A stretch of DNA of 52,062 nucleotides from a virus. Numbering within the stretch: the first letter of the stretch is position 1; each line of letters begins with the position of its first letter. The notes beneath the pieces were generated by a model. It was not told where the DNA came from. It did not search any database and worked only from the letters and a program-made list of their open reading frames with translations. The stretch is taken from the IMG/VR virus record IMGVR_UViG_3300037333_000078, positions 1 through 52,062 of that record. One strand, 5' to 3'. The position numbers and the translations under genes were made by a program. Positions 1-51,957 of the stretch are shown in pieces.

Positions 1-635
1 ACCACCAAATACACCTCTATCATTTACACCATTAGAAGTTGCTGCCAATCCGTCTCTTGCTACTGTTAAATCTCCAAAATCAGCAGCATTTGATGGAGTT
101 GATATTGTGATATAATCTATAGTATTTGAATATTCTACTGAATATCCTACTAAATAAGACCCACCACCAAATACACCTCTATCATTTGTTCCATTAGATG
201 TTGCTGCTAAAGAAAACCTTGCTACTGTTAAATCTCCAAAATCAGCAGCATTTGATGGAGTTGATATTGTGATATAACAAAGGTCTCCACTACCAAATAC
301 ACCTCTATCATTAACACCATTAGATGTTGCTGCAATATTATTGTTAATTGAACTCAATAATTCTCCAAAATAAACTGCATTTGATTGACTTGTAAGTGTA
401 ACATAATCTATCAAACTATAATTAACAGCATTCCCATTATCATCATAACCGTTACCACCACCAAATACACCTCTATCATTTGTTCCATTAGATGTTGCTG
501 TAAGCTCTCTTCTTGCTGCTGTTAAATCTCCGAAATCAATAGCATTTGATGGAGTTGATATTATAATATAATCTATAGTATTTACTGCATTACTAATATT
601 ACCATCAGTAGATCCCCCTCCAAATACACCTGTAT
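1..635 (-). repeat. Tandem kelch-like repeats in the fibre gene
   Basis: Units begin near 627, 480, 310, 183 and 20 (minus-strand reading), each with GGTGTATTTGG. Identity is high at DNA level: a block of about 38 bases (around 87-124 and 238-277 on plus) is nearly identical between two units. Such repeats can recombine and can collapse in assembly. Confidence 0.75.
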
Positions 636-783
636 CTCCTAAAGGCAATCCTGAAAACACTCTATTCCATACTCCATTAACATTAACATATACTTTATTA
701 ACCTTATTCCATACTCCATTAACATTAACATACACTTTATTAATTTTATTCCACACACCACTAATATTCACATAACTACTCAT
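1..783 (-). CDS. Tail fibre with kelch-like repeats (partial, runs off position 1)
   Basis: The open frame of 261 codons starts at an ATG at 783, preceded by GAGGTGATAA, and has no stop before the window edge. The N-terminus carries three copies of a 14-residue unit of the form YVNVNGVWNKVNKV. Then come four to five units of about 40-55 residues with the pattern DRGVFGGG...IDYITISTPSNAADFGDLTVAR...AATSNG. Gly-rich, aromatic repeats of this kind are common in phage receptor-binding fibres and are probably beta-propeller or beta-solenoid blades. It is the last gene of the tail module, 15 bases after another fibre-type gene. The third unit is shorter, lacking about ten residues. The frame is in phase with an open frame entering from the right end of the window, so the gene probably continues there. 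Receptor binding is inferred from position and repeats. Confidence 0.8.
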   Translation of the reverse strand, partial: MSSYVNISGVWNKINKVYVNVNGVWNKVNKVYVNVNGVWNRVFSGLPLGDTGVFGGGSTDGNISNAVNTIDYIIISTPSNAIDFGDLTAARRELTATSNGTNDRGVFGGGNGYDDNGNAVNYSLIDYVTLTSQSNAVYFGELLSSINNNIAATSNGVNDRGVFGSGDLCYITISTPSNAADFGDLTVARFSLAATSNGTNDRGVFGGGSYLVGYSVEYSNTIDYITISTPSNAADFGDLTVARDGLAATSNGVNDRGVFGG

Positions 784-18524: not shown

Positions 18525-19823
18525 TTATTCTCCAATCATACTATTTATTGCTTTATCTATCTGATATATTTCTTGTAATATTTTATTAGCATCTTGAACT
18601 GCTGTTCCTTCATCACTTTGAGTAGGTCTTCCAATAGGGTGATTAAGTGCAGGAACTAATTGTTCACCTATTTCATCTTCTAAAGGTTCAAATCCAAGTA
18701 ACTTCCTTGCTTCATTAACTGTTAATACACCAAAAGTTAAACCTACTTTTGCTTTTTGAACTTGTAATTCTTCATCTTCTGGAATAGGATTTTTAAATTC
18801 TATTTTATATTCATCAGCTTTTAATTTAGGTAATATTTTGTTATTAAATAATGATTGTAATTTAACAAGTTTAGGTTTTATACAATCTCTTGCAAAAATA
18901 ACATTTTGTTCGTGTGCTGATGACCTATTTATATTTTCTGTAATTCCAAGTTTAAAAGGTGGAACTTTAAATACAGATAAAATATCATTCCTTGTCCAAT
19001 TTGATTGCTCTATAAAATCTTTATTATTTGGATTTATTGATAATTCCTGATATTTTAATCCACCCCATAATACTGCTATTTCCCATCCTTTTTCTACTCC
19101 TTGATGCTTTGCTTTCCATCTCTTTTCAAGTAAATCTGCTTGTGCTGGAGATAACTTCTCTTCTGTTGTTAAAATACCTTGTGGAACTGCACCATTCCTA
19201 TAAAAATTCCTTGCATATTTTTTAGCAAAATAATGTATATCAAATTCAAGTAAAACTTTAGATAAAGGTGATTCGCCACGATTTATTCTTTCAGGTGATG
19301 GAATAAAATCATAAATAATTTCATCAGGTGTCCATTTAATACTATCAGTAGGGTCTGTTAAATCTTTATATCCTATTATTTCAAGACCTGTCTTTTTATC
19401 AAATACAGGTTCTATCATAAAAGATGGAATTGGATATAATTGAACAGGACGACCTAATTTATCTCTTGCTATATAAATATATCGCTCTCCAAAAATTTCC
19501 ATCATTACAGTTAAAATATAAATAAAATCATACCAATCCATATAAGGATTAGGATTTTTTAGGAGTTTATAAATATAATCGTTAGTTCCTTCTTCTAATA
19601 ATTTATCTTTCTTAAATAACTTATATTCATTTTGTGCAATTGTATTAGCTATCAGTGTAATACAAGCATATACAATAGAGATATTTCCATGAATTACTAA
19701 ATCTCTTTTTGTTGCTCCATCTGCTAATCCTTTTTCTCTCCTACTTAAATTGAAAATCCAATCAATAGTTTTTAAACCTATCTCACTTCCACTATTATAT
19801 AAATCAGAAGTTTCTATTTTCAT
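18525..19823 (-). CDS. Portal protein, HK97 family
   Basis: A 432-residue portal of the HK97 gp3 type. Typical parts are SIVYACITLIANTIAQ near residues 50-65, YDFIYILTVMMEIFGERYIYI, PDEIIYDFIP, the GESPLSKVL helix, FYRNGAVPQGILTTEEKL, and a C-terminal NEARKLLGFEPLED. Portals form the dodecameric DNA gate and bind terminase. The ATG 19823 has AAGAGG upstream. The transcript leader before it holds a highly structured element (19849-19931). The gene is followed without a gap by the MuF-like gene. Confidence 0.93.
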   Translation of the reverse strand: MKIETSDLYNSGSEIGLKTIDWIFNLSRREKGLADGATKRDLVIHGNISIVYACITLIANTIAQNEYKLFKKDKLLEEGTNDYIYKLLKNPNPYMDWYDFIYILTVMMEIFGERYIYIARDKLGRPVQLYPIPSFMIEPVFDKKTGLEIIGYKDLTDPTDSIKWTPDEIIYDFIPSPERINRGESPLSKVLLEFDIHYFAKKYARNFYRNGAVPQGILTTEEKLSPAQADLLEKRWKAKHQGVEKGWEIAVLWGGLKYQELSINPNNKDFIEQSNWTRNDILSVFKVPPFKLGITENINRSSAHEQNVIFARDCIKPKLVKLQSLFNNKILPKLKADEYKIEFKNPIPEDEELQVQKAKVGLTFGVLTVNEARKLLGFEPLEDEIGEQLVPALNHPIGRPTQSDEGTAVQDANKILQEIYQIDKAINSMIGE

Positions 19824-19848
19824 TCTATACCTCTTATAATATTGATTT

Positions 19849-19931
19849 CGGTATCAGGACGGGAGTAGGCAGGGGTCTACTCCCATTCACAGGACGGTTG
19901 GTAATGTCCTGTGTCCTGATACCGCCCCTGC
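19849..19931 (-). ncRNA. Three-way-junction RNA element with pseudoknot in the portal leader
   Basis: This GC-rich 83-base element stands in very AT-rich surroundings. An outer 12-bp perfect stem (19849-19860 with 19913-19924) encloses two hairpins. Hairpin A is an 8-bp stem (19861-19868 with 19877-19884). Hairpin B is a 7-8-bp stem (88-95 with 106-113 of 198xx/199xx). The loop of hairpin A, GCAGGGG on plus (19869-19875), is fully complementary to CCCCTGC (19925-19931) right beside the outer stem, so a 7-bp pseudoknot is possible. CAGGAC and GTCCTG each occur twice, allowing an alternative pairing. It lies between promoter elements and the portal ribosome site, with no T run after it. I match it to no known RNA family. 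It could be a leader regulator, a stable small RNA or a DNA-level site. Confidence 0.7.
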
Positions 19932-19950
19932 TAATATGATATAATGTATT

Positions 19951-19991
19951 ATTATACACTTTAATAATATGTCAATAGATAAAAATGTCAA
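19951..19991 (-). promoter_or_regulatory. Promoter region for the head genes
   Basis: Two minus-strand TTGACA boxes (19986-19991 and 19970-19975) lie after the terminase stop. The first has TATTAT (19964-19969) at a 16-base spacing. A perfect TATAAT (19951-19956) is also present but sits 13 bases from the second box. A start within this region would place the structured RNA at the 5' end of the portal transcript. Confidence 0.55.
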
Positions 19992-19994
19992 CTA

Positions 19995-21401
19995 TTAAAT
20001 AATTCCAACAGCCATAGTAACAGGGCAAAACCTCAATGCTACTGCTACAGCTCTATCTGGGCTTTCACCTAATTTTCCTTTCTTTAATTGTTTAAATGGT
20101 ATTAATTTAAATCTTCCTTCACTATCAAAATCATAACTAATAGACATTAATTGTCTTTTAAGTTTATCATCATAAGGTAGTTTAATTAATCTATCTCTCA
20201 ATACATTCCTTAAATGGAAAAACATCTCAGTAGCTATATTTGCATACTTCTCTTTTTCTAAAGCATTTTGAGAAAAGTTAACAGGATATACATTTGTATA
20301 ACCAAGTTCTAATAATCTATCTGCTACACCACGACCTTCACCTGTTGCATCAACTATTATATAAGAATTATGCTGGTTTATATCTACTTTATATTCTTTT
20401 GCTATATTATTTATCAATCCTACTGCACCCATTATATCGTTTTTCTGTGATGTAACCATTTCAACACAATTAAATCCTTTCCATACGCAAATAACTGTTT
20501 CATCATCACCCATAGATGCTATGTCTGCTGTTATATAAATCTCATTTTCATTTTCTTTCACATTTTTATTTGTCATTGCATATTCTATATCTGCTATATT
20601 AAACATTCCCATATCTGATTCTTCTGGAAATATTCCAAGAATTTTTGCTTTATAATAAGCACTATCTTTTCCATATTTTAACTCTACTTCTTCTACATAT
20701 TCAGGTGTAGGTAAAACTTTTCTTAAAATTTTAGCATATTTTTCTGGAATTTCATTAATTTCATTAGTAAATAAAGGCGTATCAAAAACAGATATTCTTA
20801 CTTTATAATATGATGGATTAAATAATGTCCTATAAAACTCACCTTCAGGTCTTAAAGGATTTCCTATCATCAATCTATAATTAATACCACCTGTAATATT
20901 TCCATCTAAAGCATCTATAACCCAATCTTCTATTCCTGAACTTTCCTCAAGCACTTGAAATTGATATAAAGAATGTAAACCTTGCAATGCTTCAATTTTT
21001 CTGGCTGATAATACTTCTGCCCAATGTGTTCCTTTTGTTATCTGCCATTTCGTTGAAGTTATTTCGCCTCTTAATTGAATTCTTGATTTATAATACATAT
21101 CTACAACATTTCGCCATACAGTTCTTAAACAAGAACGAAAATTAGGACTAACTATTGGAATAATCATACTATCTCTTGTATTTAACATATAACTAACTAA
21201 ATTAGCTACAAGAAATGTTTTTCCTGAACCTGTGCAAGAATAAACTGCTACTTTTTTATATTTTACAAGTGCTAATGCTATCTCTCTTTGCTTTGACCAT
21301 AGATAAGAATCGTGAACAATTCTGGCATAATATACCGGGTCATTAACTAATTTCTCAATCACTTCAACAGGTAATTCTGTTATATCTATTTTATTACTCA
21401 C
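19995..21401 (-). CDS. terL: Terminase large subunit
   Basis: A 468-residue packaging ATPase/nuclease. The N-terminal ATPase half has an adenine-side motif WSKQREIALAL, Walker A SCTGSGKT, and Walker B-like QFQVLEESSGI, where the usual Asp of DE is Glu. IGNPLRPEGEF follows as the coupling region. The C-terminal RNase H-type nuclease has ITADIASMGDDETV, IIVDATGEGRGVADRL and a late Asp in GESPDRAVAVAL. The enzyme drives DNA into the prohead and cuts it. RNase HI lies just upstream and the portal downstream. No recognisable small subunit precedes it. It ends with tandem stops TAA TAG. Confidence 0.92.
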   Translation of the reverse strand: MSNKIDITELPVEVIEKLVNDPVYYARIVHDSYLWSKQREIALALVKYKKVAVYSCTGSGKTFLVANLVSYMLNTRDSMIIPIVSPNFRSCLRTVWRNVVDMYYKSRIQLRGEITSTKWQITKGTHWAEVLSARKIEALQGLHSLYQFQVLEESSGIEDWVIDALDGNITGGINYRLMIGNPLRPEGEFYRTLFNPSYYKVRISVFDTPLFTNEINEIPEKYAKILRKVLPTPEYVEEVELKYGKDSAYYKAKILGIFPEESDMGMFNIADIEYAMTNKNVKENENEIYITADIASMGDDETVICVWKGFNCVEMVTSQKNDIMGAVGLINNIAKEYKVDINQHNSYIIVDATGEGRGVADRLLELGYTNVYPVNFSQNALEKEKYANIATEMFFHLRNVLRDRLIKLPYDDKLKRQLMSISYDFDSEGRFKLIPFKQLKKGKLGESPDRAVAVALRFCPVTMAVGII

Positions 21402-29221: not shown

Positions 29222-29776
29222 GTGAGATTATTACTAATAATAATGGCAATCTTGTTTCTTTTTTCAAATTCACAAGCACAGCCAATAGAGAAAGTAATCA
29301 ATCAAGTGTCTTTTGAAAAAGCAGTAGATGATGTATGTAATTATAACAAGAATTATTGTTTTATTCTTAAAGATAAAAATATTAATTCTTATTTGAGAAA
29401 GTATTATAAAACAGGACTTTATACGATAGCATATATAGAGTCAAAATTTAAATATAAGCAAGGATTTTATAACAAAAATGATATATCAATATTCCAAATA
29501 AATACTTATTACTGGAATAGAGAACAATTAAACAAACTTAATGTAAAGTATTCATACAATCAAATAAAGCACAATAATTATGCAGCAGCATATACAGCAT
29601 TGAGAATATGGTTAGTTAATATAAGCAGATACATTTATGTTTATAGAAAATACCCTAAATCTTTAGCAGAATATATAGCTTTATATCATAGAGTAGAGAA
29701 CATAGATAGGCATTATACAAGAAAAGCAAGAAAAGTAGTTTACAAATTTCTTAATTTAGCACAAGGAGAAAAGTAA
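29222..29776 (+). CDS. Exported lytic transglycosylase (endolysin candidate)
   Basis: A 184-residue protein with a signal peptide (RLLLIIMAILFLFSNSQAQ, probable cut after SQA) and an SLT-type muramidase core. IAYIESKFK contains the catalytic Glu, followed by ISIFQINTYYW (the Q-I-N motif), AAYTALRI and a Tyr-rich region resembling the YN/YH-type groove (IALYH). Such enzymes cut the glycan strands of peptidoglycan. The signal peptide indicates Sec export, as in signal-endolysins. GTG 29222 lies eight bases after GGAGG; TTG 29219 (five bases) is an alternative. It overlaps nrdG as TAATG. Confidence 0.75.
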   Translation: MRLLLIIMAILFLFSNSQAQPIEKVINQVSFEKAVDDVCNYNKNYCFILKDKNINSYLRKYYKTGLYTIAYIESKFKYKQGFYNKNDISIFQINTYYWNREQLNKLNVKYSYNQIKHNNYAAAYTALRIWLVNISRYIYVYRKYPKSLAEYIALYHRVENIDRHYTRKARKVVYKFLNLAQGEK

Positions 29777-30312
29777 TGGCTGATAATAAAATAAAAGTAG
29801 TATCTGTTGAAGTTATGAATTTGCAGGACGATGTATTATATCATAATCCTGCTATTGTATTCTATGCAGCAGGTTGTAAGTGGGATTGTAAATATTGCCA
29901 TTCTAAAAATACTTGGAATTTTAATCAAGGATATTATGTGACTCCTGAAGATTATTATGATATAATTAAAGATTTATTATTTAATAATGCACCTGTAACA
30001 ATAATAGGAGAAGGTGGTGATTTTTATTTTCAATTAGAGAATTGGTTTAATTTTGTAAAAGATATAAAAGATAAATTTAAATTATTTTCTGATTTATTGA
30101 AAGTTATTTGGTATACAGGTGCAGAAGTAGATGAGATACAAGATATATTCTATAATAAGTATCCAGAAATGCAGAGATACTTTGACGCAGTATTATGTGG
30201 AAAACCTTTTTATAATAAAAAAGATAAAAACATAAAAGATTTGTATTTTCCAAGTATTGATGTAATAGCAAAAGTAGAAATAACACAAGATGGACAATTA
30301 ATATATCTATAA
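29776..30312 (+). CDS. nrdG: Anaerobic ribonucleotide reductase activase
   Basis: A 178-residue radical-SAM protein. VFYAAGCKWDCKYCHSKNTW has the CxxxCxxC cluster motif typical of NrdG, followed by GEGGDFYF, similar to the SAM-binding GGEP. NrdG uses a [4Fe-4S] cluster and SAM to make the glycyl radical on NrdD. nrdD follows 21 bases later. It needs a low-potential electron donor, and a ferredoxin is encoded at 35785. Activity requires anaerobic conditions. Confidence 0.93.
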   Translation: MADNKIKVVSVEVMNLQDDVLYHNPAIVFYAAGCKWDCKYCHSKNTWNFNQGYYVTPEDYYDIIKDLLFNNAPVTIIGEGGDFYFQLENWFNFVKDIKDKFKLFSDLLKVIWYTGAEVDEIQDIFYNKYPEMQRYFDAVLCGKPFYNKKDKNIKDLYFPSIDVIAKVEITQDGQLIYL

Positions 30313-30333
30313 AATCTAAATTGGGGGTATAAA

Positions 30334-32103
30334 ATGTATGTAAGCAGAGAACAATATAAAATGTGGAAACAGAGATTTCACGATTTTCTTGATGGTGCGT
30401 ATGTAAATGATAAAAACGATGCAAATGCAAATAATAACATTGCACGCCCTACTCTTTTAAAGAATTACATATGGGGCAATGAAATGAAAGAATTTGGTAT
30501 CAAACTTATGCTTGAAGAAGCAGGATTTAAAAATATTGATGAAGCATATAAAAAATACATAGAAAGTAAATTAATTTATATTCATGATGCAGGCTCTGGA
30601 AAAGTATTTAAACCTTATTGTTTTGCATTTGAAACAAAAAATGTGAGATTATTTGGATTGCCTATATCTCCAGAACCTAAATCTCCAGCAAAACACGCTA
30701 ATGTATTTGTAGACCATGTAGCTATGCTTATTCATAATCTTTCACAAGTGTTTGCAGGAGCTATAACTCCAATTGATTTTCTTATAGAATTATCTTATTT
30801 CACTAAAAATTTATCTGATAAAGAAGTAAAACAACTTATACAGATGTTTATGCATATTATTAATGATGATATTAGAGAAGTAGACGGTTCTCCATTTGTC
30901 AATATTAATATTTTTGATAAACCTGCGCTTAAAAGACTATTTGATGTTCCAGATGAGCAGATACCTGAAGTAGATAGAGTTCAAAGATTATTTATTGATG
31001 AATTTACAGAAAGACCAAGAAATGGTGGTCGCCCATGGACATTTCCAGTGGTTACCTTGCAAATTTCTTTTGATGAAGAAGGTAATGTGTTAGATGAAGA
31101 TTATCTTGAGCTGGCATCTACATATCCTCATTTATGGTATATTTATCATAATTATGGTGATATTAAGGCGATTTCTACTTGTTGCCGTTTGAGGAACGAT
31201 TTATCTTTTATTCAAGAAGTTACAAAGCATAAAATAGGTTCTCTTGGAACTGCTAATGCACAAATAGGCTCTCATAGAGTTATTTCTCTTAATATTCCAA
31301 AAATACTTGAAAAAGGTGGTTTTGCTTTACTTGATGATATTCTTGAAAATGTAGTATATCCTTTACTTAAAGCACATAGAAAGATAATGCATAAAGAGAT
31401 AGAAAAAGGTGTTTTGCCTTACTTTAGATGTAAGAAATATGATACAGTAGAAAAAGGTGGTTGGTTTGATTTAGATACTATGTTTTTCTCTACTGTTGGA
31501 ATTATAGGACTATATGAAGGTGCAGTAGTATTAGCAGGTAGTGAAGAAGATAAAGATGCATTGTTAAAATGGGAAAAAGAAATAGCTAAATTTATCAGAG
31601 AAAAAACAGATAAATGGTCAAAGCAAGATTTATTGCCTTACGGCGTAGAGCTTGTTCCAGCAGAAAATGCAGGTGCAGTATTATCAGATACGCATATTCC
31701 TCTATCTACACAATACATTCCTTTCTGGAAAAATGAAGATGTTTATACAAGATTGAAGTTTGCAGGTGAAGTAGATGAGTATTGTAATGGTGGAACAGTT
31801 ACATTCTTACCTGTTGGTAATATTCCTAAACAAGAAACTGTTAAGCAAATAATTAGATTTGCAGGTAGAAAGAGAGTTTATTATTATACATTTAATCCTA
31901 TTTATACAATGTGTAATGATTGTGGCGAAACAATGTTTGGAAAGGTTGATAAATGTATGAAGTGTGGTAGTAAAAATGTAGATTACTTTACAAGAGTTAC
32001 AGGTTGGTATACTAAAGTGAGTAATTGGAATGATAAAAAGAAAAATGAATTTAAAATTAGGCAATTGGATTGTGTAGATGTTGACAAATCAGACAATGAG
32101 TAA
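30334..32103 (+). CDS. nrdD: Anaerobic ribonucleoside-triphosphate reductase
   Basis: A 589-residue class III reductase, similar in size to the phage T4 enzyme and without an ATP-cone. Typical segments are YIHDAGS near the start, an ISTCCRLRND region with catalytic Cys, and PEPKSPAKHANVFVDH. The C-terminus has a zinc site, CNDCG and CMKCG, followed by the glycyl radical loop RVTGWYT. It makes dNTPs from NTPs, probably with formate as reductant. The ribosome site is GGGGGT. The last codons contain a promoter -35 for the small RNA downstream. Confidence 0.93.
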   Translation: MYVSREQYKMWKQRFHDFLDGAYVNDKNDANANNNIARPTLLKNYIWGNEMKEFGIKLMLEEAGFKNIDEAYKKYIESKLIYIHDAGSGKVFKPYCFAFETKNVRLFGLPISPEPKSPAKHANVFVDHVAMLIHNLSQVFAGAITPIDFLIELSYFTKNLSDKEVKQLIQMFMHIINDDIREVDGSPFVNINIFDKPALKRLFDVPDEQIPEVDRVQRLFIDEFTERPRNGGRPWTFPVVTLQISFDEEGNVLDEDYLELASTYPHLWYIYHNYGDIKAISTCCRLRNDLSFIQEVTKHKIGSLGTANAQIGSHRVISLNIPKILEKGGFALLDDILENVVYPLLKAHRKIMHKEIEKGVLPYFRCKKYDTVEKGGWFDLDTMFFSTVGIIGLYEGAVVLAGSEEDKDALLKWEKEIAKFIREKTDKWSKQDLLPYGVELVPAENAGAVLSDTHIPLSTQYIPFWKNEDVYTRLKFAGEVDEYCNGGTVTFLPVGNIPKQETVKQIIRFAGRKRVYYYTFNPIYTMCNDCGETMFGKVDKCMKCGSKNVDYFTRVTGWYTKVSNWNDKKKNEFKIRQLDCVDVDKSDNE

Positions 32104-32109
32104 TATATT
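32081..32109 (+). promoter_or_regulatory. Promoter of the small RNA / leader
   Basis: TTGACA (32081-32086), 17 bases, TATATT (32104-32109). The -35 lies in the last codons of nrdD and the -10 begins just after its stop. Transcription should start near 32116. Confidence 0.8.
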
Positions 32110-32115
32110 TATTTA

Positions 32116-32226
32116 TAGAAGGCTTCTTTGGGATTGGCGCTACTCCTCAGCTCTTACCTCTCTAAAGAATTTGATGGTTTGCAGTCGCTGGCAGACAGGC
32201 AGGTAAATCCTGCCTGTCATCTTTTT
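32116..32226 (+). ncRNA. Small RNA or transcription attenuator leader
   Basis: About 110 non-coding bases with clearly higher G+C than the genome lie between a good promoter and an intrinsic terminator. A 6-9-bp stem pairs 32124-32132 with 32161-32169. The segment 32172-32183 (GATGGTTTGCAG) can pair at both ends with the 3' arm of the terminator (CTGC and CATC), a possible antiterminator. Only about 26 bases separate the T run from the next start codon, too few for another promoter. Downstream genes therefore depend on readthrough or on more distant promoters. I know no matching RNA family. Confidence 0.65.
32194..32226 (+). terminator. Intrinsic terminator / attenuator
   Basis: A perfect 10-bp stem, GACAGGCAGG (32194-32203) with CCTGCCTGTC (32109-32118 of the next hundred, i.e. 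32209-32218), loop TAAAT, followed by ATCTTTTT. Confidence 0.9.
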
Positions 32227-42828: not shown

Positions 42829-43629
42829 ATGAATAATTGGAAGGATTTATTTCCTAAACAAAATAGATTTTTTGAAACTAAAAATGGTATTTTATTTTGT
42901 GGTAATTGTTTAGAAATTATGAAAAATTTTCCTAAAGAAAGTGTTAATTTAATATTAACAGATCCTCCTTATAATATTGCAGATTCTAACAAATTAACAA
43001 AAGTTGGAAATAGAATAAAAACAAATAATGAAGCGTGGGGTAATAAGTTTAAAGATAAATGGAGTTCAATAGAAGAATATTTTAATTGGTTAAAAAATAA
43101 TATAAGTGAAATGAGTAGAGTTTTAAATAGATTTGGAAATCTAATTTTATTTCTTGATAGAAATTATATAGGTTTTTTTATTTATAAAATAGAACAAGAA
43201 TTAAATCTAAAATTTAGAAATAAAATTTATTTTGAAAAACTTAATCCTTTACCTCACTTTAGGAAAACAAATTATCGCTCCTGTATAGAAGAAGCTGTTT
43301 GGTTTACTAAAACTTTTAAAAGTGATTATTATATTAATTTTGTATCGCAACAAGAAATGAAGCAGATATTTAGAGGAAATATAGGTAAAAAATTTTCTAA
43401 ACATCCTACTGAAAAATATGAATGGATGATAGAGCCTTTAATTATTAGACATTCTAAAGAAAATGATTTAGTTTTAGATCCTTTTGCAGGTTCAGGGACT
43501 GTTCTTGTAATAGCAGAAAAATTAAATAGAAAATGGATAGGGATAGAAATTAATGAAGAGTATTGTGAAATAATTAAAGAAAGAATTTTGAAAGTAATTG
43601 ACAAAAAAGGAAATAGGAACTATATTTAA
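42829..43629 (+). CDS. DNA adenine/cytosine-N4 methyltransferase
   Basis: A 266-residue enzyme of the N6/N4 type with order DPPY before FxGxG (beta class): NLILTDPPYNIADSN near residue 45 and LVLDPFAGSGTVLVIAEKL near 215, then KWIGIEINEEYCEII. No restriction endonuclease is nearby, so it is a solitary phage methyltransferase. Protection against host restriction is the likely role. The target site cannot be read from the sequence. Confidence 0.88.
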   Translation: MNNWKDLFPKQNRFFETKNGILFCGNCLEIMKNFPKESVNLILTDPPYNIADSNKLTKVGNRIKTNNEAWGNKFKDKWSSIEEYFNWLKNNISEMSRVLNRFGNLILFLDRNYIGFFIYKIEQELNLKFRNKIYFEKLNPLPHFRKTNYRSCIEEAVWFTKTFKSDYYINFVSQQEMKQIFRGNIGKKFSKHPTEKYEWMIEPLIIRHSKENDLVLDPFAGSGTVLVIAEKLNRKWIGIEINEEYCEIIKERILKVIDKKGNRNYI

Positions 43630-51259: not shown

Positions 51260-51891
51260 GTAATATATTTACTTTATGTTCTTATGCCTGCGGTGGTAAA
51301 ACTTCAATTTTGCCTGCTTTAAAGTGGAATTTGGAATTAAAATTTCCGACAAAAAAAGTAATTGTAGTTCCAGAACCAGTTTCTTATGGATTAAAAGTAT
51401 TAAAAGAATTAAATGCAGATAATAATTTTAAAAACAGGCAAGCGACATTTTTAGCAACAGCATTGGCACAATTAGATATGATTAAAGATTATATTTATAA
51501 TAGTGATTATATTATTTTAATGGACAGGAATATTATAGATGTATTAATTTTTACTTTTATTAATAATAAAGATGCATTTAAACAAATTATTAAATATTTA
51601 GATAACATTGATAATAAATATGGAATAGATTTTACTTGTGAAGTTAATTACTACTATTTTAATTTACCTAAAAATCCAGAAATAATAAATAAATGCTTTG
51701 AAAGAATAGAAAGAAAAGAGACTATATCACAATCAGACTTTTTCCAAAAGGAAAGGAAATTCAAGGAATTATATTTTAAGATAGTTTATCCAGATTATAT
51801 TAGAGAAGTAAATCATCCGACAGATAATACTTATATACTTTATCAATTATTAGACGACATTTCAAAAAAGATAAATTTATTATCAGATTAA
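51253..51891 (+). CDS. Deoxynucleoside / deoxynucleotide kinase
   Basis: A 212-residue P-loop kinase. Walker A is CSYACGGKTSILP at the N-terminus, VVPEPVSYG corresponds to the E-P motif of thymidine/deoxynucleoside kinases, and YIILMDRNIIDVL holds the DR motif. A lid with several Arg/Lys (CFERIERKE) follows. It would phosphorylate thymidine/dTMP or another deoxynucleoside, completing the dUTPase-ThyX route. Exact substrate uncertain. Last gene of the rightward arm. Confidence 0.75.
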   Translation: MVSNIFTLCSYACGGKTSILPALKWNLELKFPTKKVIVVPEPVSYGLKVLKELNADNNFKNRQATFLATALAQLDMIKDYIYNSDYIILMDRNIIDVLIFTFINNKDAFKQIIKYLDNIDNKYGIDFTCEVNYYYFNLPKNPEIINKCFERIERKETISQSDFFQKERKFKELYFKIVYPDYIREVNHPTDNTYILYQLLDDISKKINLLSD

Positions 51892-51892
51892 A

Positions 51893-51941
51893 CAAAAAAA
51901 AGAGAGAGAGGAAATTTATATATTCCCTCTCTCTCTCTCTA
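51893..51941 (-). terminator. Terminator between the converging arms
   Basis: A GA/TC-repeat stem (51899-51911 with 51926-51940) with a 13-15-base AT-rich loop. On the minus strand it is followed by TTTTTTTT, so it works best for the fibre transcript. On plus there is no T run, so it would act weakly for the kinase transcript. Confidence 0.75.
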
Positions 51942-51957
51942 ATACTTTCATCTCATC

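Follow-up and report, generated by a model that had tools for sequence, protein, structure and literature searches.

What is an 83-base, strongly GC-rich segment doing between the terminase and portal genes of a phage genome that is otherwise AT-rich? The window, that is, the whole stretch of DNA analysed, is the entire 52,062-base phage record (26% GC). A run of minus-strand genes descends through it from ca. 26.8 to 0.8 kb, encoding an SbcD/SbcC-like nuclease, RNase H, terminase, portal, head morphogenesis, protease, capsid and tail proteins. The element occupies positions 19931 to 19849 of the minus (gene) strand. It lies in a 171-base gap between the gene for the terminase large subunit upstream (19995..21401, minus; phrog_2, E 3e-28) and that for the portal protein, the first gene downstream (18525..19823, minus; phrog_12, E 3e-81); two tandem promoters come first in this gap, then the element, then an A+U-rich stretch carrying a Shine-Dalgarno sequence. 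As an earlier note on this DNA had remarked, the element is GC rich in an AT-rich setting: 59%, against 26% for the genome and 17% for the rest of the intergenic gap. Our answer, to which we give a probability of only about 0.45, is that it may be the thermostable, structured 5′ leader of the portal-protease-capsid-tail transcript in a phage of thermophilic Desulfurobacteriaceae.

Read along the minus strand, its sequence is GCAGGGG / CGGTATCAGGAC / ACAGGAC ATTACCAACC GTCCTGT / GAAT / GGGAGTAG A CCCCTGC CTACTCCC / GTCCTGATACCG. The outer stem consists of 12 perfect pairs between CGGTATCAGGAC (19913..19924) and GTCCTGATACCG (19849..19860). Enclosed by it are hairpin A (19889..19912), in which ACAGGAC pairs with GTCCTGT to give 7 bp and a 10-nt loop, ATTACCAACC; the junction GAAT (19885..19888); and hairpin B (19861..19884), in which GGGAGTAG and CTACTCCC form 8 bp around an 8-nt loop made up of A plus CCCCTGC. 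Outer stem and hairpins all appear in the predicted fold, which contains a three-way junction closed by the end helix. Seven of the seven bases of the loop strand CCCCTGC (19869..19875) are Watson-Crick complementary to GCAGGGG (19925..19931), which abuts the outer stem on its 5′ side, and each of these 7-mers occurs once per strand in the genome, both within the element. The 12-bp stem, the two enclosed hairpins and the loop complementary to the stem-adjacent bases had been described in the earlier note, and all are present and perfectly paired. Judging from this complementarity, we infer that a 7-bp loop-to-flank pseudoknot forms in the RNA. In the hairpin B loop, a single base (A) precedes the seven that pair and nothing follows them, so that the predicted geometry on the minus strand is an 8-bp stem, a 1-nt crossing loop, the 7-bp helix and a 0-nt link. 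H-type pseudoknots permit a 1-nt crossing loop over a 7-bp helix, and this is a mild argument that the gene strand is the RNA strand.

That the fold exceeds chance was confirmed in several ways. Against dinucleotide shuffles, the element scored z = -5.0 on the plus strand and -5.2 on the minus strand, and none of 200 shuffles was as stable on either strand. The lowest 100-nt folding energies of the whole 52-kb window fall at the element (-49.7 kcal/mol plus, -44.8 kcal/mol minus; window mean -10.7, standard deviation 5.1), whereas the best value among 12 Markov genomes with the same dinucleotides was -31.8 kcal/mol. We also searched with a strict descriptor of the four-helix layout, which set thresholds on all four helices and required neither a GC content nor an energy: such a layout turned up at all in 13 of 400 Markov genomes, and in the window exactly once, as the element itself. 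Only this strict version is cited because relaxed thresholds, which returned 4 to 24 loci per random genome strand, do not discriminate. Given the stems, the chance of a 7-bp match between loop and flank is about 0.2 to 0.8%. The evidence fixes the anatomy and context of the element, namely its sequence, its fold strength, its unique complementary 7-mers, its position and its absence from a relative described below.

The fold is also predicted to be durable and to have no close competitor. The CAGGAC and GTCCTG copies had been thought to allow a second fold; pairing them in the other register yields -32.2 or -27.6 kcal/mol versus -45.6, that is, 13 to 18 kcal/mol worse, and the proposal falls on that account. 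At 60 to 80°C, the GC core is predicted to stay folded (-27.6 to -12.9 kcal/mol) while its surroundings are open and the Shine-Dalgarno region is unpaired. Against the predicted pseudoknot, its helix would be worth no more than about -7 kcal/mol at 70°C, with loop penalties still to be counted.

The case for a leader comes from what flanks the element. By consensus match, two sigma-70-type promoters, each scoring 11/12, lie on the gene strand: TTGACA-16-TATTAT at 19964..19991 and, nearest the element, TTGACA-16-AATAAT at 19948..19975, with a predicted start near 19941. The earlier note had put the element between terminase and portal, below a promoter, and took it for a separate RNA or for the head operon's 5′ leader; the promoters seen on the gene strand support that placement. 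TTGACA-type boxes also occur elsewhere in the phage, including one ahead of the protease gene (window 17790). On the other side (19824..19848, minus), an A+U-rich spacer, predicted to be open at 60 to 80°C, leads to the Shine-Dalgarno sequence AAGAGGT and then the portal ATG at 19823; the ribosome site begins 13 bases past the outer stem, and both it and the ATG lie within 25 nt of the element. A sequence scan revealed no U-tract terminator between element and portal start, so the transcript should continue into portal. Since promoters immediately precede the element and it is followed by a ribosome site, 13 bases beyond the outer stem, and not by a terminator, a 5′ leader is the simplest reading.

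Under the leader reading, transcription would start from the promoters at 19991-19948, some 10 nt before GCAGGGG, and the RNA would fold as it is made, the 12-bp stem and two hairpins forming and the hairpin B loop pairing with the 5′ flank to make the 7-bp pseudoknot. The A+U-rich Shine-Dalgarno region would stay open beside the folded RNA. Most likely, a knot so near the 5′ end would act in cis, shielding a long late mRNA from decay that depends on the 5′ end, or offering a binding place to a protein that adjusts how portal and later genes are translated, or both. Such a leader function, in cis and through mRNA stability or translation, is something we infer.

The T4 gene 32 leader offers a parallel for both roles, decay shield and protein-binding operator; there, a pseudoknot precedes an A+U-rich ribosome site, and the mRNA is unusually stable (PMC3014915). 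Complementarity and the order of parts here would fit that arrangement, a predicted pseudoknot in the presumed 5′ leader of a phage mRNA coming ahead of an A+U-rich stretch that contains the ribosome site. The differences are that no three-way junction is described for gene 32, and that its autoregulator is a single-stranded DNA-binding protein, whereas the gene here encodes portal. One could go further and suppose that, much as T4 gp32 acts on the mRNA that encodes it, some phage protein attaches to the pseudoknot and then either extends across the A+U-rich ribosome site or obstructs it. The order of pseudoknot, A+U-rich stretch and ribosome site matches that of gene 32 (PMC3014915), but the downstream gene is not one for a single-strand-binding protein and the relative does without the element, and we regard a translational operator of this kind as quite unlikely.

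The main rival to a leader is a processed, trans-acting RNA. Here, the locus would be a promoter-plus-RNA cassette (an “RNA moron”) between late genes, from which a discrete small RNA is freed by RNase III-type cutting. The element's own promoters, the exposed loop ATTACCAACC and the relative's lack of promoter and RNA alike would suit such a cassette. Against it, no terminator follows the element, the Shine-Dalgarno sequence and portal ATG come within 25 nt, and no obvious phage target was found, the loop complement GGTTGGTAA having one further occurrence (46688, plus). We consider this explanation unlikely, if worth keeping in view. That the phage carries small RNAs is suggested by a second promoter-RNA-terminator candidate at window 32081-32225 (plus), in which a promoter, TTGACA-17-TATATT, is followed by a GC-rich stretch and then by a perfect 10-bp intrinsic terminator (GACAGGCAGG/CCTGCCTGTC, then ATCTTTTT) shortly before the GGAGG of the next gene. 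This candidate had no Rfam match and may represent either an attenuator leader or a small RNA.

Lying shortly behind a promoter, where a long operon begins, the element also brings to mind the put RNA of HK022, and it might, like put, modify RNA polymerase so that it reads the ~19-kb late operon. HK022 put is likewise a structured RNA of ~70 nt downstream of a phage promoter (PMC9378689), and the element is near it in size. However, put is described as two stem-loops acting at early promoters, with no enclosing stem, whereas the two hairpins here are enclosed by one of 12 bp. Moreover, we found no sequence similarity, only one terminator-like site is present in the scanned part of the late operon, and the relative runs the same operon without the element. 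We regard an antitermination role as very unlikely.

That relative, IMGVR_UViG_3300026512_000011, is the only close one found; further scans with capsid and terminase queries recovered the same contig only. Its regional gene order is that of the window, and its proteins are 57% (terminase), 48 to 49% (portal) and 58 to 59% (capsid) identical to those of the window. Its terminase-portal junction (L008) is 38 nt long, leaving no room for such a structure, and by the test applied to the window it contains no near-consensus promoter; the box before the protease gene, by comparison, is kept (L008 7530). It would appear, from this one relative, that head-gene expression and packaging in the group do not need the element. 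Promoter and RNA may have arrived together or been lost together. As a lineage-specific pair, they would add a transcription boost plus a leader, where the relative apparently reads through from terminase at the corresponding junction. Because the nearest relative is without it, a regulatory leader specific to this lineage is a likelier identity for the element than a component of the DNA-packaging machinery.

The latter idea, that the element is a packaging RNA like the phi29 pRNA, had been floated in the earlier note and is not supported by these comparisons; we consider it most improbable. A three-way junction in a phage-encoded RNA is indeed what the two share (PMC5340915), the element lies beside terminase, and no small terminase was recognised among the proteins scanned. 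However, pRNA assembles through interlocking loops, whereas the complementary stretches here are a loop (that of hairpin B) and the 5′ flank, and between the loop of hairpin A, ATTACCAACC, and that of hairpin B we found none of the complementarity that assembly of a pRNA ring needs. The terminase is a phrog_2 large subunit that aligns over its length with conventional large terminases, not a gp16-type ATPase as in phi29. Finally, the relative has no such RNA at its junction despite its 57% identical terminase, and in its genome the strongest GC-rich island is formed by a TnpB gene together with the 3′ end of that gene (L092:13400-14717, minus). This GC-rich, strongly folding 3′ end is possibly an omega RNA.

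Nor do we favour a DNA-level explanation, in which the locus would be a miniature mobile element or a structured DNA site (a transposon end, an attachment site or an origin hairpin) and not an RNA. A GC-rich 12-bp inverted repeat that is absent from the relative's junction would fit this well enough; against it, the promoters point straight into the element, which is single copy in the window and has no counterpart in the relative, in 136 genomes of the host phylum, or among phages and plasmids. The relative's junction was considered as an empty insertion site and rejected, the match of the flanks (ATACATT..ATTAGCA) not being significant (p about 0.06). A mobile element or DNA site is, in our view, improbable. 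As to cargo in the neighbourhood, an N6/N4 DNA methylase gene lies in the rightward region of the window (42829-43629, plus), and the relative has its homologue between RNase H and terminase (L092:6192-6923), so that the terminase flanks look like a place of cargo turnover.

The earlier note knew of no described family with this layout, and at the Rfam 15 gathering threshold no family matches in the window; at a loose threshold, the best match was iscRS at 16.8 bits against a cutoff of 40. By blastn, no homologue of the element was found in 50,697 phage records or 72,556 plasmids, the whole junction had no match among phages, and the 136 genomes of the host phylum yielded only a 17-nt chance match. 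Coverage of IMG/VR consisted of two gapped DNA patterns only: the outer-stem pattern gave one match, inside a coding gene without hairpins and thus taken as chance, and the loop pattern gave two, both without the fold. The outer-stem pattern was not found in 22 genomes of the host family. Applied to 90 loci, mostly terminase relatives, the structural descriptor gave apparent chance matches only, nearly all in GC-rich sequence. The self-cleaving ribozyme classes were set aside by reasoning on topology, the element order of HDV not fitting. One might suppose a new RNA family, a promoter-plus-RNA cassette of a vent phage whose three-way junction is locked by the loop-to-5′-flank pseudoknot and which, instead of being a leader, targets the host or competing elements in trans; we think this rather unlikely.

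GC-rich islands often mark structured RNAs in the AT-rich genomes of hyperthermophiles, which supports reading the element as such an RNA; in Pyrococcus abyssi, they recovered 51 known noncoding RNA genes (PMC3124441). Those RNAs are cellular, whereas the element sits in a phage and has no known homologue. The element shows that such islands can also point to structured RNAs in the AT-rich phages of thermophiles.

The host is probably a thermophilic bacterium of the Aquificota, within the Desulfurobacteriaceae; the evidence for this is a single spacer together with a single transposon protein in the relative. A CRISPR spacer (L107, 683-718) is 92% identical to the portal gene at window 18749-18784. 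Its array (L107:590-1270; genome G122, contig C27) has 11 repeats (GTTTTATCTGAACTAGTGGGATTTAAAC) at a spacing of 63 to 65 bases, and the genome falls in the family to which genomes titled Desulfurobacteriaceae and Thermovibrio belong. The TnpB of the relative has its closest copies in Desulfurobacteriaceae (65 to 84% identical). A 29/29 match in another genome (G071) lies outside any CRISPR array and was taken as chance. Desulfurobacteriaceae are anaerobic, thermophilic vent bacteria (Aquificota), and the host's high temperature is presumed accordingly. The window also encodes an anaerobic ribonucleotide reductase (NrdD) and a radical-SAM activase-like protein (29776-32103, plus); a phage NrdD fits an anaerobic host. 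Nearly all knowledge of Aquificota viruses comes from metagenomes, and no such virus had been isolated according to a 2020 paper (PMC7689252). If real, the leader, knotted and heat stable and lying between terminase and portal, would offer a simple and testable example of RNA structure controlling late genes at high temperature.

Several other features of the window deserve mention. Five long promoter-like boxes of the TTGACAAAAAAGGAAAT...TATATTTAA type precede rightward genes (window 32074, 39686, 43591, 47652 and 48512, plus) and probably constitute one phage promoter family. Tandem repeats at the left end (window 1-760), with units of 42 bases and longer, are likely a repetitive tail-fibre gene cut by the end of the record. 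Near the other end, a long, near-perfect AG/CT inverted repeat at window 51890-51945, followed on the minus strand by a T run, is probably a terminator for leftward transcription.
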